Shown: in pieces, positions 5,211-16,098 of the stretch
Layout of the letters: each line of letters starts with the position of its first letter
Position numbering within the stretch: the stretch's first letter is position 1
IMG/VR virus record: IMGVR_UViG_3300032156_002402
Location: 1 to 22,042 of that record
DNA: 22,042 nt
Origin: a virus
Reading direction: 5' to 3' (one strand)
Notes under the pieces: model-generated
What the model was told of the DNA's origin: nothing
What the model saw: only the letters and a program-made list of their open reading frames with translations
The model's database searches: none
Translations under genes and position numbers: made by a program

Positions 5211-7511
5211 ATGGCTGAATTTCAAGGAGCTGGGAGAGAAGTTCTAATAGCAGTGGCTCAGAATGAAGTTGATGATGCTGCAATGAGAGCATTTATAGCT
5301 GGATTCAGCGGATTCAGTTTCCTTAGCGGTTATTCTGGATATAGCGGATCATCAGGCTATTCTGGAGATAGCGGAATTTCGGGTTATAGCGGCTACTCAA
5401 GTTTTTCTGGCTATTCAGGCTACTCAAGTTTCTCTGGGTATTCGGGTTATTCAAGTTTGTCTGGCTACTCAGGTATCTCTGGCTACTCAGGAGATAGTGG
5501 CATAAGCGGCTATTCAGGCTATTCGGGTTATAGCGGCGATTCTGGTATTTCAGGCTACAGTGGAGATTCAGGAATATCTGGTTATTCTGGAGATTCGGGA
5601 ATCAGTGGCTATTCGGGAGATTCAGGAATTAGCGGCTATTCAGGTTTCTCTGGCTACAGTGGAGATTCAGGAATTTCAGGATATAGCGGATATTCAAGTT
5701 TCTCTGGCTACTCTGGAGATTCAGGTATCTCTGGCTATTCAGGATTCAGCGGTTATTCTAGTTCTGGTTATAGCGGCTACTCTGGCTACTCTGGAGATAG
5801 CGGTATTTCTGGCTATTCAGGATTTTCGGGCTACAGCGGAGATTCAGGAATTAGTGGCTATTCTGGCTACAGCGGAATTAGTGGTTATTCGGGATATAGT
5901 AGCTTTAGCGGCTACTCAGGTTTTTCTGGCTACTCTGGCTACTCAAGTTTCTCTGGCTATAGCGGAATCAGCGGTTTTTCATCAGATTCAGGTTGGAGCG
6001 GTATTTCTGGTTACTCTGGAATCAGCGGCTACTCTGGAATTTCTGGAATAAGCGGCTATAGTGGACTAGTTGGATACACCGGAACATCAGGTTATAGTGG
6101 TATTGGTACATCTGGATATAGTGGTTACTCTGGCATATCTGGTTTTTCTGGCACAAGCGGAATAAGCGGAGCAAGCGGAAAGAGCGGATACAGCGGCGCA
6201 TCTGGCTACTCTGGATATAGCGGATATATAGGAGTTACAGGATCTCAGGGATTTAGCGGATGGTCTGGCAAAAGTGGCTACTCAGGATTGTCTGGGACTT
6301 CGGGATACTCTGGCATCAGTGGATATAGCGGAGTAGGATTGACTGGTTTTTCTGGTGCAAGCGGAAGAAGCGGATATTCAGGATGGTCAGGCCCAGTTGG
6401 TGGATTAGGAGTATCTGGATATTCAGGAAGAAGCGGCTATTCTGGCATATCAGGATTTGTAGGACAATCTGGTTATTCTGGAGATTCAGGAATTAGTGGT
6501 TACTCTGGAGATTCTGGTCCTAGAGGCATCAGTGGATATTCAGGAGAGATAGGAGCATCAGGCTATAGTGGAATCGGATTATCTGGCTATTCGGGCATAT
6601 CAGGATATAGCGGAATCGGATTATCAGGCTATTCTGGAAGTTCTGGTTATATTGGTACAAGCGGATATTCTGGAGATAGCGGACTTAGTGGATATAGCGG
6701 ACAAAATCCAGGAGCATCTGGCTATAGCGGTATTTCTGGCTACTCAGGTTACAGCGGAATTAGCGGATATTCAGGAACTTCTGGCTACTCAGGTTACAGC
6801 GGCTATTCAGGAATTGGAACTTCTGGTTATTCAGGAGTAAGTGGATATAGAGGAGTTCAGGGCTTCTCTGGAGAGAGCGGATATAGTGGAGTTTCTGGTT
6901 ATAGCGGATTAAGCGGATATTCAGGAGTAGGAGTTTCTGGCTACAGTGGATATTCTGGTGATATAGGCGCTTCTGGCTATTCTGGCATAAGTGGATATAG
7001 CGGACTTAGAGGACTCAGCGGATATAGCGGACTTCCGATAAGCTGGATGAGTCAGTGGATAACATCAACTTCTTATGTTATTAATGATGTTGTTGCTAAT
7101 TTGTTTAACACATATATTTGTATTTTTGCACATATATCAAGCGCAATCACAGAACCTGGAGTTGGCGGTAGTTGGGCAATTTATTGGGAGCTTATGGTTC
7201 CTAGAGGAACGCCTGGCTCTTCAGGTTATTCGGGACAATCGGGATACAGCGGTGCTAATCCGGGAGCTTCAGGTTATAGCGGATACTCAGGCGCAAATCC
7301 GGGAGCATCTGGCTATAGCGGATATTCAGGAGCAAATCCGGGAGCTTCAGGCTACAGCGGAATGTCTGGCTATTCAGGAGCAAATCCGGGAGCATCTGGC
7401 TACAGCGGATTCTCTGGTTATTCAGCAGGAGGCACGGGCTTCGGAGGATCTTTCCAGGGCACAACCGGCTGGCTTTATTTTGTTAATGGATTTATTGTAG
7501 GAATGAGTTAA
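5211..7511 (+). CDS. Collagen-like fibre protein with G-x-S triplets
   Basis: This 766-aa protein has a 30-residue N-terminal segment (MAEFQGAGREVLIAVAQNEV...) that may anchor it to the virion. About 570 residues of collagen-type triplets follow, in which position three is nearly always serine (GYS, GDS, GIS, GFS) and proline is almost absent. In residues about 45-270 some glycines are replaced by serine (SGYSSFSGYS), which would interrupt a perfect triple helix. A non-repetitive module at about 607-668, rich in Trp and Tyr (WMSQWITSTSYVINDVV ... WAIYWELMVP), looks like a small carbohydrate-binding-type fold. Four copies of a GANPGASGYSG unit follow, and the chain ends in GWLYFVNGFIVGMS, like the closing strand motif of phage fibre proteins. 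A trimeric surface fibre is the likely role. The ribosome site is AAAGGAAA. Confidence 0.8.
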   Translation: MAEFQGAGREVLIAVAQNEVDDAAMRAFIAGFSGFSFLSGYSGYSGSSGYSGDSGISGYSGYSSFSGYSGYSSFSGYSGYSSLSGYSGISGYSGDSGISGYSGYSGYSGDSGISGYSGDSGISGYSGDSGISGYSGDSGISGYSGFSGYSGDSGISGYSGYSSFSGYSGDSGISGYSGFSGYSSSGYSGYSGYSGDSGISGYSGFSGYSGDSGISGYSGYSGISGYSGYSSFSGYSGFSGYSGYSSFSGYSGISGFSSDSGWSGISGYSGISGYSGISGISGYSGLVGYTGTSGYSGIGTSGYSGYSGISGFSGTSGISGASGKSGYSGASGYSGYSGYIGVTGSQGFSGWSGKSGYSGLSGTSGYSGISGYSGVGLTGFSGASGRSGYSGWSGPVGGLGVSGYSGRSGYSGISGFVGQSGYSGDSGISGYSGDSGPRGISGYSGEIGASGYSGIGLSGYSGISGYSGIGLSGYSGSSGYIGTSGYSGDSGLSGYSGQNPGASGYSGISGYSGYSGISGYSGTSGYSGYSGYSGIGTSGYSGVSGYRGVQGFSGESGYSGVSGYSGLSGYSGVGVSGYSGYSGDIGASGYSGISGYSGLRGLSGYSGLPISWMSQWITSTSYVINDVVANLFNTYICIFAHISSAITEPGVGGSWAIYWELMVPRGTPGSSGYSGQSGYSGANPGASGYSGYSGANPGASGYSGYSGANPGASGYSGMSGYSGANPGASGYSGFSGYSAGGTGFGGSFQGTTGWLYFVNGFIVGMS

Positions 7512-10478: not shown

Positions 10479-10654
10479 GGGAGTAATAAGCTGAATCTAA
10501 ATACCGAGTGCTAACCAGTCAATTAGTTTGCCCGCCAGAGTGTAAGGGCGTTATTTAAAGCGTTTCGTGGTGCACCACTTTTTCGAGTAACGCTTGTCTG
10601 CAGCTTCCTAACCTCTATTACACTCCCATTAGCACCGGCTAGAATATTACTCCC
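10479..10654 (-). ncRNA. 176-nt nested long-hairpin RNA element (strand inferred)
   Basis: The gap 10366-10653 carries no convincing gene, but 10479-10654 folds on itself by successive perfect pairings: GGGAGTAATA (10479) with TATTACTCCC (10645); CCG-A-GTGCTAA (10504) with TTAGCACCGG (10629); GAGTGTAA (10538) with TTACACTC (10618); AAGCGTT (10558) with AACGCTT (10589); and an apical palindrome GTGGTGCACCAC at 10567. GCGTTA and TAACGC offer a competing pairing. The result is a rod with internal loops. It begins exactly at the TROVE stop codon. The strand cannot be told from pairing; minus is inferred from neighbours. It may be a partner RNA of the TROVE protein, a 6S-like rod or a processed 3' end. 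The rest of the gap (10366-10478) shows a GGGGG/CCCCC pairing and little else. Confidence 0.6.
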
Positions 10655-12132
10655 TAAAGCTGTACTTTCTCTATTTCAGCTATTAAAGCATTCTTGTCGG
10701 TTTCAAGGATCTTCATCACATCAAAGATCTTTTCAGACCAACCGGCAATAGCAAATACGTTCTTTTCAGGAAACATAATTGTTCCGTAGTCATTCAGGTT
10801 GAATGAATATACATAAGGATCTGCTTTGTAGTTTGTCTTGTATTTAGCAAATGTTTTTGTAGGTGCTCCTGGGTGCATCCAGGTAGAATCAGTCATCCAG
10901 CCCTGCATATCAGAAAGAATGATTATCCTGTCGTAATTTTTTTTGATAGTTTCGAATATAGAGTGGAAGTTAGTTCCGCCACCACACTCCTGTGACTTTT
11001 CAGCAACTTTATCTGCAAGTGTAATGACACTATCGGAAGTATCGATTGTGAAATACTTTGCTTCATCAGCAAAAGCTATGAAGTCTGCATCTTCGTTAAC
11101 TTTCAACAATACAGCTGAGAAAAGCGATCCGATGTCACGAGGTTTCCCATCCATAGAGCCAGAGCCGTCAAGAACTATAAGAGTCTTTCCTGTAAACTTA
11201 GGAACGTTCTTTAAAGCTATATCAGCTGCTTTGTTTATAGCTCTAAGTACTTTCTTTGCGCCATCAACACCAATATTCTCTATTTCTTTATAAGCAACAT
11301 GGTATCTAAAGGGAAGTACAAGGCTATTCTTTATAAGCTTCTCATCTGTAAGCATTTCACAAGCTTGATCAACTATGTTAGGAGATTGCTCTAATATATT
11401 TCTTAGATTCCTTAATAGAGCAAAATATCCTATCTTCTTTTCGGTAATTAGTTTTGTCCAAACATCTGACTTCAGCTGAACTTTTTCTTCTTCAGTTTTT
11501 GCTTTCTGGCCTGCCTGAGTAAGCTCAGTTTCCCATGTGTCTTTAGACTTTAATTTCTTATTGACAAGATCTCCTATAGCAAACCCATTCTTTTCAGTTG
11601 GCTTTGGGTGGATCAGATTAACTAGGTCTACTAAAGACACTTCTTTGCCTTCTCCACGGTATTTTGCCAGTTCATAGCTATTGAACTTGCCGAATGCTCT
11701 GCCCAGGCCCTTCTTTAAGGAGTTAGGCAAAGGTTTCTTGTAGTTCTTTAAGTAATATGACACGATCTCTGTCATATCGTCAGGTCTGTATACAACATCA
11801 CAGAAGAATTTCTTAGTCCACTCTTCTCCCTTTACAAGACGTGCAAGTTCTGCAGCTGTAAAGTGAGTTACAGATCTCATTCCGAATTTAGTGCGAGCAT
11901 AGATGGCAGCTTTTGCGAGGAACTTTTTATCAGAGATGTCTGTCATAAGCGTCAACAAGCGTCTCATAGTCTCATTTGAAGATTCATAGAACTTATCATT
12001 CAAAAACGACGTAAGAAGAGTGCTTACAAATTCTAACTTAGCAGATTCTTTGTATGCTACTCCGCCTTCTGCATTGACAGTCTCTGTAGATTTTGTTGCT
12101 GAAGATGTTCCCTTTGGATTGAACTTTGCCAT
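10654..12132 (-). CDS. TROVE-domain Ro60-like RNA-binding protein (Rsr-type)
   Basis: This 492-aa protein matches the Ro60/Rsr family in length and architecture: an N-terminal ring of helical HEAT-like repeats (about 25-310; e.g. KFLAKAAIYARTKFGMRSVTHFTA and LLRNLRNILEQSP) and a C-terminal von Willebrand factor A domain (about 314-492). The metal site is intact: DGSGS at 322-326, the threonine of GGGTN at 387 and the aspartate of ILSDMQ at 408. Known Ro60 proteins bind misfolded RNAs through the ring and Y RNAs on its outer surface, and in bacteria join exonucleases in RNA decay and rRNA maturation. AAGGAGG lies six bases before the ATG. RNA-like elements flank both ends of the gene and the tRNA array lies upstream on the same strand. 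A role in surveillance or processing of phage RNAs is inferred. Confidence 0.95.
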   Translation of the reverse strand: MAKFNPKGTSSATKSTETVNAEGGVAYKESAKLEFVSTLLTSFLNDKFYESSNETMRRLLTLMTDISDKKFLAKAAIYARTKFGMRSVTHFTAAELARLVKGEEWTKKFFCDVVYRPDDMTEIVSYYLKNYKKPLPNSLKKGLGRAFGKFNSYELAKYRGEGKEVSLVDLVNLIHPKPTEKNGFAIGDLVNKKLKSKDTWETELTQAGQKAKTEEEKVQLKSDVWTKLITEKKIGYFALLRNLRNILEQSPNIVDQACEMLTDEKLIKNSLVLPFRYHVAYKEIENIGVDGAKKVLRAINKAADIALKNVPKFTGKTLIVLDGSGSMDGKPRDIGSLFSAVLLKVNEDADFIAFADEAKYFTIDTSDSVITLADKVAEKSQECGGGTNFHSIFETIKKNYDRIIILSDMQGWMTDSTWMHPGAPTKTFAKYKTNYKADPYVYSFNLNDYGTIMFPEKNVFAIAGWSEKIFDVMKILETDKNALIAEIEKVQL

Positions 12133-12615: not shown

Positions 12616-12690
12616 TGGGTTGACTGACGGGATTCGAACCCGTTTCCCGTGGGCCACAGCCACGTGTCTTGCCATCCGACCCCAGCCAAC
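12616..12690 (-). tRNA. tRNA-His (GUG)
   Basis: The anticodon loop CTGTGGC gives GTG. The gene encodes CCA, discriminator C73 and a G at position -1 that pairs with it, both hallmarks of tRNA-His. T-loop TTCGAAT and D-loop GG are standard. Its 5' end directly abuts the -10 box of the promoter at 12691-12719, so that promoter cannot produce this tRNA whole; the tRNA must come from upstream transcription. Confidence 0.95.
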
Positions 12691-12719
12691 ATAATACCAC
12701 GGATCGTGCTATTTGTAAA
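12691..12719 (-). promoter_or_regulatory. Sigma70-like promoter overlapping the tRNA-His 5' end
   Basis: On the minus strand: TTTACA, 17 bases, TATTAT, with TGG just before the -10 box (extended -10). It matches three other promoters here. The expected start lies about seven bases inside tRNA-His, so it probably serves units D to A and the TROVE gene. Confidence 0.7.
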
Positions 12720-12725
12720 CTAAAA

Positions 12726-12802
12726 TGGTAGCCGAGGAAGGAGTCGAACCTTCAAAAATCTGTTTCTAAGACAGATATCTATGCCAATTCGATTACCCGG
12801 CC
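12726..12802 (-). tRNA. tRNA-Leu (UAG) without long variable arm
   Basis: Anticodon loop CTTAGAA gives TAG, reading CUA. CCA is encoded and the discriminator is A as expected for leucine. The variable region is only five Ts, whereas leucine tRNAs are class II with a long arm. The D-arm is ATC/GAT with GG, and the T-loop is TTCGACT. The anticodon stem TCTGT/ACAGA is perfect. Confidence 0.88.
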
Positions 12803-12803
12803 G

Positions 12804-12877
12804 TAGCGGTGAAGGGATTCGGACCCGTACTTTGCGGCTTTTAAGACCGCTGCCTCTGCCAGTTGGGCTACACCGCC
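12804..12877 (-). tRNA. tRNA-Leu (UAA), no encoded CCA, short variable region
   Basis: Loop CTTAAAA gives TAA. It is the only tRNA here whose 3' end is not CCA in the DNA (CGG follows the discriminator A). The variable region AAAGT is five nt, again class I for a leucine tRNA. T-loop TCCGAAT has C55 with G18G19 in the D-loop. One T-stem mismatch is present. One base separates it from the next tRNA. Confidence 0.85.
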
Positions 12878-12882
12878 AAAAA

Positions 12883-12960
12883 TGGTGCGTGAAGTAGGAT
12901 TCGGACCTACAAAACAGAAGGTTTGAGCTTCTGATGTCTGCCAATTGCAATCATTCACGC
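12883..12960 (-). tRNA. tRNA-Leu (CAA), short variable region
   Basis: Loop CTCAAAC gives CAA, reading UUG. CCA is encoded; discriminator A. Variable region GTTTT, five nt. T-loop TCCGAAT (C55) with D-loop TTGGCA. The 5' end directly follows the CCA of the upstream tRNA-Arg with no spacer. Confidence 0.88.
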
Positions 12961-13038
12961 TGGCACCCCTGATAGGATTTGAACCTATGACTCCAAGTTT
13001 AGAAAACTTGTACTCTAGTCCAGCTGAGTTACAGGGGC
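12961..13038 (-). tRNA. tRNA-Arg (UCU)
   Basis: Loop TTTCTAA gives TCT, reading AGA, a common arginine codon in AT-rich genes. Encoded CCA, discriminator G, T-loop TTCAAAT, D-loop CTGGA. Acceptor GCCCCTG pairs with CAGGGGT (one G-U). Its CCA abuts the following tRNA-Leu. Confidence 0.94.
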
Positions 13039-13045
13039 AAACAAA

Positions 13046-13121
13046 TGGTCTGCCTAACAGGATTTGAACCTGTGTCCTACAGTTTAGGAAACTGTCATGC
13101 GTCCAATTACACCATAGGCAG
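13046..13121 (-). tRNA. tRNA-Arg (CCU)
   Basis: Loop TTCCTAA gives CCT, reading AGG. Encoded CCA, discriminator A, T-loop TTCAAAT, D-loop TTGGA. The 5' end follows the tRNA-Met CCA with no spacer. Confidence 0.94.
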
Positions 13122-13198
13122 TGGTGCAGACAGCAGGGCTCGAACCTGCGACCTGCCCATTATGAGTGGGCTGCTCTTCGCTACTGAGCTATGTCTGC
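13122..13198 (-). tRNA. tRNA-Met (CAU), elongator-type or Ile2
   Basis: Loop CTCATAA gives CAT. A G1-C72 acceptor pair and an anticodon stem without the GGG/CCC run argue against an initiator. With C34 modified to lysidine it would read AUA as tRNA-Ile2, which the DNA cannot decide. T-loop TTCGAGC keeps U55 but the D-loop reads AGTAGCG, giving an A18-U55 combination. Confidence 0.9.
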
Positions 13199-13203
13199 AA
13201 AAA

Positions 13204-13279
13204 TGGACTCTCCGGAGAGATTCGGACTCTCAATCTACTGGTCCGTAGCCAGTCGTTGATCCAGTTCAACTACGGAGAG
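13204..13279 (-). tRNA. tRNA-Arg (ACG)
   Basis: Loop CTACGGA gives ACG, which needs A34-to-inosine editing by a TadA-type enzyme, not seen in this window. Encoded CCA; discriminator T is unusual for arginine. T-loop TCCGAAT (C55), D-loop AACTGGAT. The upstream tRNA-Ile CCA abuts its 5' end. Confidence 0.9.
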
Positions 13280-13354
13280 TGGTCCACGAGGCTGGAATCG
13301 GACCAACTTATGCCGCCTTATCAAGACGGTGCTCACCCGGAGAGCTTCTCGTGG
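13280..13354 (-). tRNA. tRNA-Ile (GAU)
   Basis: Loop TTGATAA gives GAT. Encoded CCA, discriminator A, T-loop TCCGATT (C55) with G18G19. The anticodon stem CCGTC/GGCGG has one U-G pair. Its 5' end touches the stop codon of the 49-aa gene upstream. Confidence 0.92.
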
Positions 13355-13504
13355 TTATGCCTTTTCAATCTGATCTTTATTATACTTCTCGACCAGTTCT
13401 AAAATGTTTTTCACAAATTCAATATCTTCTACTTTTGGATCTTGTATAGTAGTTGCAATATATTCATGAATACCATTGCTTCTTTTTTCAATTACAACTC
13501 TCAT
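13355..13504 (-). CDS. 49-aa protein gene inside the tRNA array
   Basis: A 49-residue frame (MRVVIEKRSNGIHEYIATT...NKDQIEKA) fills the gap between tRNA-Ile and tRNA-Val. AAGGAG lies five bases before the ATG, and the TAA stop is the base next to the tRNA-Ile 5' end. The product looks like a short beta-hairpin followed by one long amphipathic helix (VEDIEFVKNILELVEKYNKDQIEKA). No family is recognised. The leader AAGGAGTAGTTATG recurs before the 43-aa gene at the head of the array, so both are probably translated from the tRNA transcript. RNase P cutting at tRNA-Ile would leave the message ending at its stop codon. Confidence 0.78.
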   Translation of the reverse strand: MRVVIEKRSNGIHEYIATTIQDPKVEDIEFVKNILELVEKYNKDQIEKA

Positions 13505-13524
13505 AACTACTCCTTTTTATAAAA

Positions 13525-13598
13525 TGGTAGGCGATAAAAGAATTGCACTCTTATCTTCTGGGTGTAGACCAGATGTCCTTCTGTTGGACGAATCGCCC
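13525..13598 (-). tRNA. tRNA-Val (UAC)
   Basis: Loop TCTACAC gives TAC. Encoded CCA, discriminator A. T-loop TGCAATT has G55, and the 7-nt D-loop AACAGAA has A18G19 instead of G18G19. T-stem AAGAG/CTTTT has one G-U. It abuts the CCA of tRNA-Asn. Confidence 0.9.
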
Positions 13599-13682
13599 TG
13601 GCTCCGAGGGCAGGAGTCGAACCTACATGCCTTACGGCGGCTGGTTAACAGCCAGCTGGGTTACCAATTACCCAACCTCGGA
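13599..13682 (-). tRNA. tRNA-Asn (GUU) with long variable arm
   Basis: Loop CTGTTAA gives GTT; discriminator G fits asparagine; CCA is encoded. Between the anticodon and T stems lie 13 nt able to form GCC-GTAA-GGC, a class II-like arm not expected in asparagine tRNA. T-loop TTCGACT, D-arm GGG/CCC with TTGGTA. All other arms pair perfectly or with single wobbles. Confidence 0.88.
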
Positions 13683-13683
13683 A

Positions 13684-13758
13684 TGGTGCCGGAAGAGGGT
13701 GTCGAGCCTCATCTTTGGCTCTTCAGACCAACGCTCTTACCAGTTGAGCTATCCCGGC
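13684..13758 (-). tRNA. tRNA-Phe (GAA) with irregular T-arm
   Basis: Loop CTGAAGA gives GAA. Encoded CCA, discriminator A. Acceptor and anticodon arms are good, D-loop ACTGGTA standard. The T-arm fits best as a 4-bp GAGG/CCTC stem with an 8-nt loop CTCGACAC, one base longer than normal and with C at position 54. Confidence 0.85.
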
Positions 13759-13765
13759 ATCTAAA

Positions 13766-13839
13766 TGGAGCAGGTGGAGAGAATCGGACTCTCATATTGA
13801 GGTTGGAAACCTCACATTCTGCCATTGAATTACACCTGC
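13766..13839 (-). tRNA. tRNA-Gly (UCC)
   Basis: Loop TTTCCAA gives TCC. Discriminator T is correct for bacterial glycine tRNA; CCA encoded. T-loop TCCGATT (C55), D-loop AATGGCA. The upstream tRNA-Thr CCA abuts its 5' end. Confidence 0.92.
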
Positions 13840-13913
13840 TGGAGCCGGAGGAAGGAATTAAACCCTCATCTGAAGTTTACAAAACTACCGTTCTATCGTT
13901 GAACTACACCGGC
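13840..13913 (-). tRNA. tRNA-Thr (UGU)
   Basis: Loop TTTGTAA gives TGT. Encoded CCA; discriminator T is unusual for threonine. T-loop TTTAATT has U56 rather than C56, and the D-loop AACGATA has A19 rather than G19, keeping a Watson-Crick 19-56 pair. One mismatch each in the anticodon stem (T-T) and acceptor stem (T-T). Confidence 0.85.
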
Positions 13914-13930
13914 ATAACAAAGAGCAAATT

Positions 13931-14004
13931 TGGAGCCCGGTGAGGGTACTGGCCCCTCTCCTCGACATTGGCAATGTCGCATACTACCTTTATACGAACC
14001 AGGC
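13931..14004 (-). tRNA. tRNA-Gly (GCC) with variant T-loop
   Basis: Loop TTGCCAA gives GCC; discriminator T and encoded CCA fit glycine. The T-loop GCCAGTA has G at both 54 and 58 in place of the usual T54-A58 pair, and C55. The T-stem GAGGG/CCCTC is perfect, so this is not simple decay. It abuts tRNA-Ala with no spacer. Confidence 0.85.
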
Positions 14005-14078
14005 TGGTGGACCGTACCAGAATCGCACTGGTATCTGCTGATTGCAAGTCAGCCATCCTACTATTGAACGAACAGCCC
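14005..14078 (-). tRNA. tRNA-Ala (UGC)
   Basis: Loop CTTGCAA gives TGC. Discriminator A and encoded CCA. Acceptor GGGCTGT/ACGGTCC pairs with two G-U pairs. T-loop TGCGATT (G55), D-loop AATAGTA (A18G19). Confidence 0.9.
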
Positions 14079-14085
14079 TAAACTG

Positions 14086-14172
14086 TGGTGGTGGATGATG
14101 GACTCGCACCATCGAACCCCTTTCGGAGACCTGGTTTACAGCCAGGCGGAATTGCTACTATCCCAACCCACC
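14086..14172 (-). tRNA. tRNA-Tyr (GUA)
   Basis: Loop CTGTAAA gives GTA. A 16-nt variable arm is present, as expected for bacterial tyrosine tRNA. Encoded CCA, discriminator A. T-loop TGCGAGT (G55) with D-loop AGTAGCA (A18G19). Confidence 0.93.
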
Positions 14173-14209
14173 ATAACACGTCTAATGAACTATAACATAG
14201 ACGATGTTA

Positions 14210-14713
14210 CTATAAATACTTTTCCCATAGATCGTGTATTTCACCGATCTTGATACGTATGATCTCCTTGAAACCGTGTGGCTTTCTTGGAGTTCTGATC
14301 AAATGCATATCAGCTTCTTGTGGAGTTCTGTTGTCCTTTACTCTATTGCAACCGCCGCAAGCTGATACTGTGTTCTCCCATATTGATTCGCCACCTCTTG
14401 ATTCTGGTATCACGTGATCAATAGTTATCTTTTCTTTTCTAGTCTTTTCACCGCAGTACTGACAAATGAAATTATCTCTACGATGTATGTTATTCTTAGT
14501 ATATGAAACGTAAGTGATACGTTCATAGACGACCTTTACATATTTCTTTAGACGTATAACTGCTGGAACTTTCATCTCCATGCTGGGAGAATGGATTACT
14601 TGATCATATTCTTCTTCAACGATAGCCCTGCCTGTTACAGCAGCACATACAGCTGACTTCCAATCAGTTACACCAAGAAATTCATAACTTGCATTCAATA
14701 CTAGTACCCGCAT
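14210..14713 (-). CDS. Free-standing HNH endonuclease within the tRNA array
   Basis: This 167-aa protein starts MRVLVLNASYEFLGVTDWKSAV; an upstream in-frame ATG at 14758 lies inside a tRNA gene, and GGAG lies eight bases before the chosen start. The C-terminal half carries a Cys-metal HNH fold: C84-x2-C87, the D99-H100 pair (TIDHVIPESRGG), N114 in ENTV, and C119-x2-C122-N123. This subfamily is a common stand-alone nuclease of about 165-185 aa in bacteria and phages. Flanked by tRNA-Gln upstream and tRNA-Tyr downstream, it is probably a mobile homing-type gene that settled between tRNAs, or it may nick invading phage DNA. No intron is visible around it. Confidence 0.92.
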   Translation of the reverse strand: MRVLVLNASYEFLGVTDWKSAVCAAVTGRAIVEEEYDQVIHSPSMEMKVPAVIRLKKYVKVVYERITYVSYTKNNIHRRDNFICQYCGEKTRKEKITIDHVIPESRGGESIWENTVSACGGCNRVKDNRTPQEADMHLIRTPRKPHGFKEIIRIKIGEIHDLWEKYL

Positions 14714-14729
14714 ACATGTTTCTCCTTTA

Positions 14730-14803
14730 TGGCTGAGAAGTAAGGACTTGAACCTCAACCTATTGCTCCAGAGGCAATTGTGCTACCATTACACCACTTC
14801 TCA
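14730..14803 (-). tRNA. tRNA-Gln (CUG)
   Basis: Loop CTCTGGA gives CTG; discriminator G and encoded CCA fit glutamine. T-loop TTCAAGT, D-loop with TGGTA. Its CCA end lies a few bases before the ribosome site of the HNH gene. Confidence 0.92.
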
Positions 14804-14804
14804 A

Positions 14805-14879
14805 TGGTCGGAGAGGTGAGATTCGGACTCACGTGGTCTCGGTCCCAAGCCGAGTGACTAGCCGCTAGCCTACTCTCCG
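14805..14879 (-). tRNA. tRNA-Pro (UGG)
   Basis: Loop CTTGGGA gives TGG. Encoded CCA, discriminator A. T-loop TCCGAAT (C55), D-loop AGCGGCT. The anticodon stem CTCGG/CCGAG is perfect; one base separates it from tRNA-Gln(CUG). Confidence 0.93.
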
Positions 14880-14897
14880 TTTATTTCTATTCTAATT

Positions 14898-14916
14898 TGT
14901 ATATTCGCAATATACA
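14898..14916. repeat. Inverted repeat TGTATATT-CGC-AATATACA
   Basis: A perfect 8-bp inverted repeat with a 3-base loop lies in the 51-base spacer between two tRNA genes. The same two arms, with a 16-base loop, form a hairpin in RNA unit C (12318-12349). It may be an RNA processing hairpin or a protein-binding palindrome. Confidence 0.6.
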
Positions 14917-14930
14917 CTTCTTACTCAAAT

Positions 14931-15004
14931 TGGCTGACGGACCTGGGCTCGGACCAGGGATAACAGATTCAAAGTCTGTCGTGTTACCACTACACTATCC
15001 GTCA
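14931..15004 (-). tRNA. tRNA-Gln (UUG)
   Basis: Loop CTTTGAA gives TTG. Discriminator G, encoded CCA. T-loop TCCGAGC (C55), D-loop AGTGGTA, D-stem GTGT/ACAC. T-stem CCTGG/CCAGG perfect. Confidence 0.93.
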
Positions 15005-15010
15005 ATAAAA

Positions 15011-15089
15011 TGGTGGACCCGCATACTACTGCGCCAGCTGGACGCCCATAGTATTTATTTTATTCGGTGGTTTCAGCACCATCAGGCCC
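15011..15089 (-). ncRNA. Aberrant tRNA-like RNA with encoded CCA
   Basis: In step with its neighbours, 79 nt form a 7-bp acceptor stem (GGGCCTG with CGGGTCC), discriminator A and encoded CCA. Inside, the first arm is TGGTG-CTGAAAC-CACCG, exactly an anticodon arm with GAA (Phe) and T33; there is no room for a D-arm. An A-rich linker follows, then a long hairpin (ATACTA ... TAGTAT, with GCG-T-CC-AGCT-GG-CGC) in place of the T-arm. It could be a decayed tRNA or a deliberate mimic. Confidence 0.55.
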
Positions 15090-15098
15090 ATGTAAATC

Positions 15099-15173
15099 TG
15101 GTGAACGAGGTGGGATTTGCACCCACATATCTCCTGGTTAAGAGCCAGGTGCTTTACATTTAGCTACTCGTCC
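15099..15173 (-). tRNA. tRNA-Lys (CUU)
   Basis: Loop CTCTTAA gives CTT. Encoded CCA, discriminator A. T-loop TGCAAAT (G55); the short D-loop AAATGTAA lacks the GG pair altogether. Anticodon stem CCTGG/CCAGG perfect. Confidence 0.9.
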
Positions 15174-15174
15174 C

Positions 15175-15250
15175 TGGTGCCTGTGGCGAGAATTGCACTC
15201 ACAACCTACTGGTTAAAAGCCAGTTGCTCTGCTGTTTGAGCTACACAAGC
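15175..15250 (-). tRNA. tRNA-Lys (UUU)
   Basis: Loop CTTTTAA gives TTT. Encoded CCA, discriminator A. T-loop TGCAATT (G55); D-arm GCTC/GAGC with loop AAACAGCA (A18G19). One base separates it from tRNA-Lys(CUU). Confidence 0.92.
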
Positions 15251-15256
15251 AAAATC

Positions 15257-15330
15257 TGGAAGCCGTGATCGGTATTGCACCGATGTACACCGTTTTGCAG
15301 ACGGTTACCTATCTACTCGGTCACACGGCC
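15257..15330 (-). tRNA. tRNA-Cys (GCA)
   Basis: Loop CTGCAAA gives GCA; discriminator T is the cysteine identity base; CCA encoded. T-loop TGCAATA (G55), D-loop AGTAGAT (A18G19). Acceptor GGCCGTG/CACGGCT. Confidence 0.93.
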
Positions 15331-15336
15331 AAAAAA

Positions 15337-15410
15337 TGGTAGCGGGTCCTGGAATTGCACCAGGGTCCTGACCTTATGAGAGTCATGACTTGCTACTTGT
15401 CCAACCCGCC
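15337..15410 (-). tRNA. tRNA-Met (CAU), second copy, elongator-type or Ile2
   Basis: Loop CTCATAA gives CAT; anticodon stem TGACT/GGTCA. Encoded CCA, discriminator A. T-loop TGCAATT (G55), D-loop AGTAGCA (A18G19). It has no initiator features. As there are two CAU tRNAs, one may be an AUA-reading isoleucine tRNA. Confidence 0.9.
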
Positions 15411-15414
15411 CGTT

Positions 15415-15488
15415 TGGCAGGGGATAAAGGAGTTGAACCTTTACCTGAGGTTTTGGAGACCTCCGTGCTGCCTTAACACTTATCCCCT
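15415..15488 (-). tRNA. tRNA-Trp (CCA)
   Basis: Loop CTCCAAA gives CCA, reading UGG. Discriminator G fits tryptophan; the 3' CCA is encoded. Standard T-loop TTCAACT and D-loop with AGGCA. Anticodon stem GAGGT/ACCTC perfect. Confidence 0.94.
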
Positions 15489-15490
15489 AT

Positions 15491-15576
15491 TGGCGGAAGG
15501 TGGTAGAGTTGAACTACCAAGCCTGTTACAGCTCTAGTTTTCAAGACTAGTGAGCTCGCCCATGCTCAGACCTTCC
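15491..15576 (-). tRNA. tRNA-Ser (UGA)
   Basis: Loop CTTGAAA gives TGA. A 15-nt variable arm and discriminator G are as expected for serine. T-loop TTCAACT standard, GG in the D-loop. Encoded CCA. Confidence 0.94.
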
Positions 15577-15577
15577 G

Positions 15578-15665
15578 TGGCGGAGATGGCAGGATTTGAA
15601 CCTACGGGGCTGTTACACCCAACGCCTTAGCAGAGCGCCGCTTTAAACCGCTCAGCCACATCTCC
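15578..15665 (-). tRNA. tRNA-Ser (GCU)
   Basis: Loop CTGCTAA gives GCT. A long variable arm (GGG...CCC) and discriminator G are present, CCA encoded, T-loop TTCAAAT. The RNase P RNA lies six bases upstream of its 5' end. Confidence 0.93.
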
Positions 15666-15671
15666 GTTTTA

Positions 15672-15928
15672 GTGAACTGTAAGCCGGATTCTGTATTTGG
15701 TAATCATCTATCTAAGCTCCCGACCCGATACTATTGATCGAGCAAATCAGTATCTGTTTGGGATTGCTCCATGCAGAGATTGGCCGTTTCACGTTACTCG
15801 TCTCTGTTCCTCTGATCCTCACTGCTGAAAGTGGGCAGGTTTATTGGACCTGCTGCACTGCTCTATGGAGTCCGGACTTTCCTCAAGAGATCTCTCTCCA
15901 CGAGAGATTCTTGCGATTACCTGTTCAC
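15672..15928 (-). ncRNA. rnpB: RNase P RNA, compact, phage-encoded
   Basis: On the minus strand this 257-nt element shows the signature blocks of bacterial RNase P RNA, the catalytic RNA that cuts tRNA 5' leaders. P1 is GTGAAC/GTTCAC and P2 is GGTAATC/GATTACC. A P3 hairpin ATCTCTC/GAGAGAGAT comes next, then the P4 5' core GAGGAAAGTCCGGACTCC, the hairpin GCAGGT/ACCTGC, and AACAGAGACGAG with GTGAAACGG. GGAGCAATCCCAAACAG, a GGGT motif (CCA contact) and the 3' core ACAGAATCCGGCTTAC complete it. Typical bacterial forms are 350-400 nt. The missing length falls mainly in the specificity region (P12-P14), whose job is to grip the tRNA elbow. It sits between tRNA-Asp and tRNA-Ser with five- and six-base spacers. 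The protein subunit is not in this window and may be host-supplied. Confidence 0.95.
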
Positions 15929-15933
15929 CAATT

Positions 15934-16007
15934 TGGCAGTCCATAGGGGAATTAAACCCCTGCTTTAAGCGTGACAAGCTTACGTGCTATCACTACACCA
16001 ATGGACT
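15934..16007 (-). tRNA. tRNA-Asp (GUC)
   Basis: Loop TTGTCAC gives GTC; discriminator G and encoded CCA fit aspartate. T-loop TTTAATT has U56, and D-loop AGTGATA has A19, preserving the 19-56 pair as in tRNA-Thr. D-stem GTGT/GCAC. Confidence 0.92.
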
Positions 16008-16024
16008 ATATCAAAGAACAATTA

Positions 16025-16098
16025 TGGTAGGGCTAGGCGGTACTGACCCGCCGCTCTCAGGCTGAAAACCTGATGTGCTGCCTTTACACAATAGCCCC
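16025..16098 (-). tRNA. tRNA-Glu (UUC)
   Basis: Loop TTTTCAG gives TTC. Encoded CCA; discriminator A (G is usual). T-loop GTCAGTA has G at 54 and 58, as in tRNA-Gly(GCC). T-stem GGCGG/CCGCC is perfect. This is the first tRNA transcribed in the array. Confidence 0.9.

Follow-up and report, generated by a model that had tools for sequence, protein, structure and literature searches.

A predicted class A RNase P RNA gene with a reduced specificity domain in the tRNA array of a phage

The window, meaning the whole stretch of DNA analysed here, is IMG/VR virus record IMGVR_UViG_3300032156_002402 (22,042 bases, positions 1 to 22,042). It carries a set of phage tail genes (T4-type sheath, tube, baseplate hub, head-tail adaptor and neck), and bacterial contamination was ruled out because tail sheath, tail tube, baseplate and neck genes lie on the same contig as the RNA gene described below. 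A tRNA array occupies 12616..16098 on the minus strand. ARAGORN predicted 27 tRNAs in it and cmscan two more (13528-13598 and 13934-14004, minus strand), giving a total of about 29. CCA is encoded by 26/27 tRNAs of the ARAGORN set, and the spacers of the array are often 0-7 nt long. An HNH endonuclease gene lies within the array (14210-14758, minus strand); the tRNA arrays of the Microbacterium phages described below also carry HNH and endonuclease VII genes. Directly downstream of the array, a TROVE/Ro60-like protein is encoded at 10654-12132 on the minus strand (Pfam TROVE 1e-22, PHROG 850), and its best phage relative, with 51% identity, was found in the 634-kb phage LR745206. Ro60 binds Y RNAs, which mimic tRNA; no Y RNA scored over the Rfam threshold in the window. 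On the plus strand, upstream of the tail sheath gene, a 766-aa protein (5211-7511) consists mostly of SGYSG-type repeats and has a collagen-like look.

Between tRNA-Asp (15934..16007, CCA encoded) and tRNA-Ser(GCU) (15578..15665), and on the same minus strand as these tRNAs, cmscan of the window found a match to RF00010 (RNaseP_bact_a) at 15664-15932 with 136.2 bits and an E value of 4.1e-42. The score exceeds the gathering score of the model, which is 100, and the alignment runs end to end over model positions 1-367. We placed the RNA at 15666..15931 (minus strand), from the P1 5' strand, which starts 2 nt after the CCA of the upstream tRNA-Asp, to the nucleotide preceding tRNA-Ser, whose first nucleotide directly follows the 3' end of the RNA. 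Its length would be about 266 nt if RNase P cleavage at tRNA-Ser sets its end. A sequence-only reading had recognised the core blocks of a shrunken bacterial RNase P RNA on the tRNA strand, with paired P1 and P2, at 15672-15928. These ends are a few nucleotides off the P1 ends at 15669-15931, and the identification was borne out by a P1 of 9 bp, a P2 with 7/7 pairs and the recovery of all conserved blocks. Neither a low covariance score nor a broken P4 was seen, P4 forming 7/7 pairs.

Alignment to RF00010 located helices P1-P11 and P15-P17 in the window RNA and left the P4 and P6 pseudoknots and all five conserved regions (CR) intact; the following coordinates are all on the minus strand. P1 is formed over 9 bp by UUGGUGAAC (15923..15931) and GUUCACUAA (15669..15677), P2 by GGUAAUC (15915..15921) and GAUUACC (15699..15705), and P3 is a hairpin at 15885..15912. 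The P4 5' strand is provided by CR-I, GAGGAAAGUCCGG (15872..15884), and its 3' strand by CR-V, ACAGAAUCCGGCUUA (15680..15694). The P6 5' strand GAGCA (15859..15863) is complementary to UGCUC in the L17 segment UUUGCUCG (15739..15746), giving a long-range pseudoknot. CR-IV GGAGCAA (J5/15) lies at 15764..15770 and the L15 region CGGGUCGGGA, with the GGU for tRNA CCA, at 15718..15727; L15 is known to pair with the 3' end of tRNA (PMC4919913). P5, P7, P15, P16 and P17 are also kept. The reduced specificity domain (S domain) contains a P8 hairpin (15835-15853), a P9 hairpin (15820-15833) and P10/P11 with the elbow-docking junctions (15774..15814). The latter stretch holds CR-II, ACAGAGAC, in J11/12 (15797-15807), GUGAAAC in J12/13 (15786-15792) and CR-III with GCCAA (15774-15784). 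In place of P12, P13 and P14, which take up 80 model positions, there is a 12-nt link, UAACGUGAAACG (15785..15796), and P18 is reduced to 0 nt, so "shrunken" was an apt description. Secondary-structure modelling agreed with this anatomy: an unconstrained fold recovered P1, P2, P3, P8, P9 and P15-P17, with a z of −1.96.

The window RNA thus has the catalytic P4 pseudoknot with its bulged U, conserved CR-I and CR-V, the class A signature of P6 together with P16/P17, and the L15 GGU for the tRNA CCA end, and it lacks P12, P13, P14 and P18. These four helices are common in class A, yet some members do without them. As they are not universal, class A membership of the window RNA stands. On these predictions, the element is a genuine phage gene for class A RNase P RNA (rnpB), minus P12-P14 and P18.

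We then asked how common such RNAs are. Viral contigs in IMG/VR were scanned with exact patterns (the two P4 strands at short spacing, or the 5' block), which gave 25 loci; these counts are lower bounds, since exact patterns with limited spacing miss variants such as that of phage Zooman described below. RF00010 matched 25/25 of the loci, most of them under the gathering score. Removal of two duplicates and two cellular-looking loci left 21 distinct RNAs besides that of the window. The shortest measures 198 nt (L010), the longest is a full-length RNA of 415 nt (L031), and most lie within tRNA arrays. Every one of their records holds some tRNAs (1 to 66), and a tail-sheath or terminase match was found in 11/24 records when the window and the duplicates are counted. 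Two full-length RNAs at loci without tRNAs (L032 and L033) were not counted as phage RNase P. Matches in Microcystis phage MaAM05 and Acinetobacter phage MD-2021a were set aside, because the cellular genes in their neighbourhoods make them look like bacterial rnpB. The MaAM05 entry (L002, MW495066.1) itself resembles a bacterial chromosome, with fabI, engB, mtgA and a full-length RNase P RNA of 252 bits.

Blastn with the window RNA against GenBank phages gave nothing informative, a second set of RNAs used as queries gave no matches, and no match was found in the plasmids searched. Six distant loci related via DNA ligase held neither RNase P RNA nor tRNAs, and RF00010 had no match in four phages related through Ro60 or sheath, LR745206 among them.

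The phage RNAs differ considerably in how much they retain. The S domain is nearly all lost in L009 and L010, and the smallest phage core measures 153 nt. Small size alone is not special, because reduced cellular RNAs exist as well (at least 118 loci, with a core of at least 205 nt among the matches listed). Four RNAs (L003, L007, L008 and L011) share a reorganised specificity domain in which a block like AAGCCGAAACUUAAAAAGCA replaces the usual J11/12-P12 region; this arrangement may be a new S-domain type. At the other end of the range, L031 (7142 bases) holds a class A RNase P RNA of full length (415 nt) that abuts tRNA-Val in an array of 27 tRNAs, possibly a less reduced form. In L007 (6827-7193), L019 (2368-2685) and L023 (636-993), the phage tRNA array that holds the RNase P RNA also contains a tmRNA gene.

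One RNA type of the viral contigs is present, at 99% identity, in the cultured phage A3Wally and, more diverged, in phages Zooman and Big4. These Microbacterium phages were matched by blastn with other phage RNAs as the query, not with the window RNA. All three genomes are complete (192-195 kb), and in each the RNA sits within the tRNA array and has no annotation. Judged from the alignment, both strands of P6 differ between A3Wally (GAAUG/CAUUC) and Zooman/Big4 (GAAUC/GAUUC) and remain paired. Both strands of P4 differ as well, AAG/CUU in the former becoming AGU/GCU in the latter, with pairing mostly kept and one pair now a wobble. This change in P4 deserves notice, as the letters concerned are nearly universal. 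It may reflect altered or lost catalysis in Zooman (L179) and Big4 (L180), and would not apply to the window RNA, in which the near-universal P4 letters are unchanged.

Pairing was also compared across the wider collection. P4 was paired at 7/7 positions in 20/20 RNAs examined, the window included, although the conserved P4 blocks formed part of the search pattern. Two P4 pairs were left free by that pattern, and these were standard pairs in 40/40 cases, of types GC, AU, CG and GU. Nearly all RNAs also have a paired P1 and P2, built from unrelated sequences. P6, which lies outside the search pattern, pairs far better within than between RNAs (0/5000 permutations). The covariation of P1, P2, P4 and P6 indicates that the fold is under selection. 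This bears on the idea that rnpB was captured together with host tRNAs and now decays as a passenger of no benefit to the phage. Widely varying sizes, the loss of many helices and the habit of tRNA arrays of acquiring genes by transfer would suit such a passenger. Three observations make it very improbable: 1) two-sided changes keep P4 and P6 paired, both between close relatives and across distant phages; 2) the helices lost are those dispensable for catalysis; and 3) the RNA is retained in many unrelated phages.

Bacterial RNase P RNA works with a protein subunit, RnpA, which we looked for with PF00825. It was found in 0/23 phage records, the window record being a 22-kb fragment, and in 0/3 complete Microbacterium phage genomes; the same search was positive in 10/14 control genomes. 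As no RnpA was found in the phage sequence searched, host RnpA is the probable partner of the RNA. A type A catalytic domain can cleave in the absence of both the S domain and P18 (PMC5839562), so the losses in the window RNA are compatible with activity. We propose that the window RNA is most likely transcribed together with the tRNA array, that it would bind the host RnpA protein, and that the complex would cleave the 5' ends of the tightly packed pre-tRNAs of the phage. The phage might gain extra processing capacity during a burst of dozens of tRNAs, or at times when host RNase P runs short. That the RNA is transcribed, that it uses host RnpA, that it is catalytic and that it benefits the phage are all inferred from the genome.

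A conserved fold could also be kept for another purpose. The RNA might be a decoy that binds host RnpA or pre-tRNAs and so starves or redirects host RNase P, without itself being an efficient enzyme. Such a role would fit the changed near-universal P4 nucleotides of Zooman and Big4 within a conserved fold, the loss of nearly the whole S domain in L009 and L010, and the lack of RnpA in the phage sequence searched. We nevertheless regard it as unlikely. The window RNA and 19 other RNAs retain conserved P4 blocks with 7/7 pairs in P4 (the blocks being part of the search pattern), and the CCA-binding GGU is kept in the window RNA. Moreover, a site between substrate tRNAs suits an enzyme better, and these phages need their own tRNAs processed.

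The position of the RNA relative to tRNAs was examined across the phage loci. In 12/22 of them the next annotated tRNA begins no more than 30 nt past GGCUUA, the conserved 3' block, always on the same strand and directly following the P1 3' strand; the other 10/22 phage RNAs have no annotated tRNA within 30 nt downstream. The corresponding count for cellular loci with similarly short RNAs, a set picked by the same pattern as the phage RNAs, was 0/110 among the matches listed (p 2e-11 against phages). Where a tRNA adjoins the 3' block, its 5' processing would simultaneously finish the 3' end of the ribozyme. In the window, an RNase P cut at tRNA-Ser would thus create the 3' end of the ribozyme and render the array self-maturing. 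Likewise, a cut between abutting tRNAs would give the 5' end of one and the CCA 3' end of the tRNA upstream. We favour, as the likely reading of this locus, a functional phage RNase P RNA that uses host RnpA and processes both the tRNA array and its own 3' end.

RNase P contacts the tRNA elbow via interdigitated T-loops of the S domain (PMC4919913; PMC12974513). The sequences that form these docking T-loops, CR-II ACAGAGAC, GUGAAAC and GCCAA, are retained in the window RNA; the assignment of these letters to the docking motif is our own reading. Even the link that stands for P12-P14 devotes 7 of its 12 nt to GUGAAAC, the J12/13 consensus. On this assignment, what is lost is the scaffold around the docking site, not the docking site. 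It had been suggested from the sequence that the P12-P14 specificity region was largely gone; this was right for the helices, P18 being lost in addition, but docking junctions J11/12 and J12/13 are still present.

The same reading had described the tRNA elbows as altered. Indeed, 17/27 window tRNAs depart from TTC at positions 54-56 (7 TCC, 6 TGC, 2 TTT, 1 CTC and 1 GTC). With the D-loop numbered by eye, position 18 is a non-G (A or T) in 6/6 G55 tRNAs versus 1/21 others (Fisher p 2e-5), and both U56 tRNAs, tRNA-Thr and tRNA-Asp, carry A19. The predicted elbow is therefore altered yet preserved through covariation, as exchanges at 18-55 and 19-56 compensate each other. A rewritten but kept elbow across the tRNA set of one phage looks unusual in itself.

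From altered elbows and a missing specificity region, co-evolution of the viral ribozyme with its tRNA substrates had been proposed, the region being lost because the elbows had changed. The 17/27 tRNAs off TTC and the absence of P12-P14 speak for this idea. It finds no support in the docking junctions, which are retained, or in the elbow pairs, which covary. Over 16 phage loci, no significant correlation was seen between the size of the RNA core and the share of T-loops that deviate from TTC (rho 0.33, p 0.22). Furthermore, smaller RNAs occur alongside normal T-loops: L008, L009 and L010 have far smaller S domains and T-loops that are almost only TTC. We consider loss driven by the elbow to be the least probable of the explanations weighed here.

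Compared with bacterial class A RNase P RNA (RF00010, rnpB, M1 RNA), the window RNA shares the five conserved regions, P1-P11, P15-P17, the P4/P6 pseudoknots and the L15 GGU. It differs in being phage-encoded within a tRNA array, in its length of about 266 nt, in lacking P12, P13, P14 and P18, in having no rnpA in the sequence searched, and in a 3' end that would be defined by an abutting tRNA. A reduced specificity domain with a kept catalytic domain is also seen in simplified laboratory RNase P RNAs and in the type T RNase P RNA of Pyrobaculum, reportedly described by Lai et al. in 2010. Type T comes from archaea and acts together with archaeal proteins. Its S domain is degenerate (PMC5839562), whereas P7-P11 and the docking junctions are present in the window RNA; L009 and L010 come nearer to type T in size.

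The nearest report that we found concerns Mycobacterium austroafricanum and M. sp. YC-RL4, which have extra rnpB homologues with a structurally different specificity domain, an endonuclease gene between the copies and suspected transfer (PMC9569102). Unlike the window RNA, those copies lie in bacterial genomes and, in the portions of that paper available to us, are neither traced to phages nor described in tRNA arrays. Huge phages resemble the window phage in having large tRNA sets, and also carry tmRNA, synthetases and translation factors (Al-Shayeb et al. 2020, PMC7162821); the main text of that survey makes no mention of RNase P. The nearest Ro60-bearing huge phage, LR745206, has no RF00010 match. 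Our literature search, of partial coverage, turned up no paper describing a phage RNase P RNA. By its predicted structure the window RNA is plainly an RNase P RNA; what appears new is that it is viral, reduced, without its own protein and punctuated by tRNAs.

Few ribozymes are as conserved and essential as RNase P RNA, which has so far been regarded as a cellular gene. With somewhat less assurance than for the window RNA itself, we lean towards the view that the phage RNAs represent a widespread, undescribed class of viral ribozyme. Its members would be encoded without a protein, punctuated by tRNAs, and self-maturing while they process the array; they would recruit host RnpA, and would have repeatedly shed specificity-domain helices, some also rewriting conserved P4 pairs. 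Because the gene is present in cultured Microbacterium foliorum phages, the idea is directly testable. Should phages indeed rely on an RNase P RNA of their own, they would control tRNA maturation during infection. Dozens of natural minimal variants would then be at hand for asking which parts are required for RNase P RNA to work, and how an RNA of foreign origin teams up with a protein of the host.
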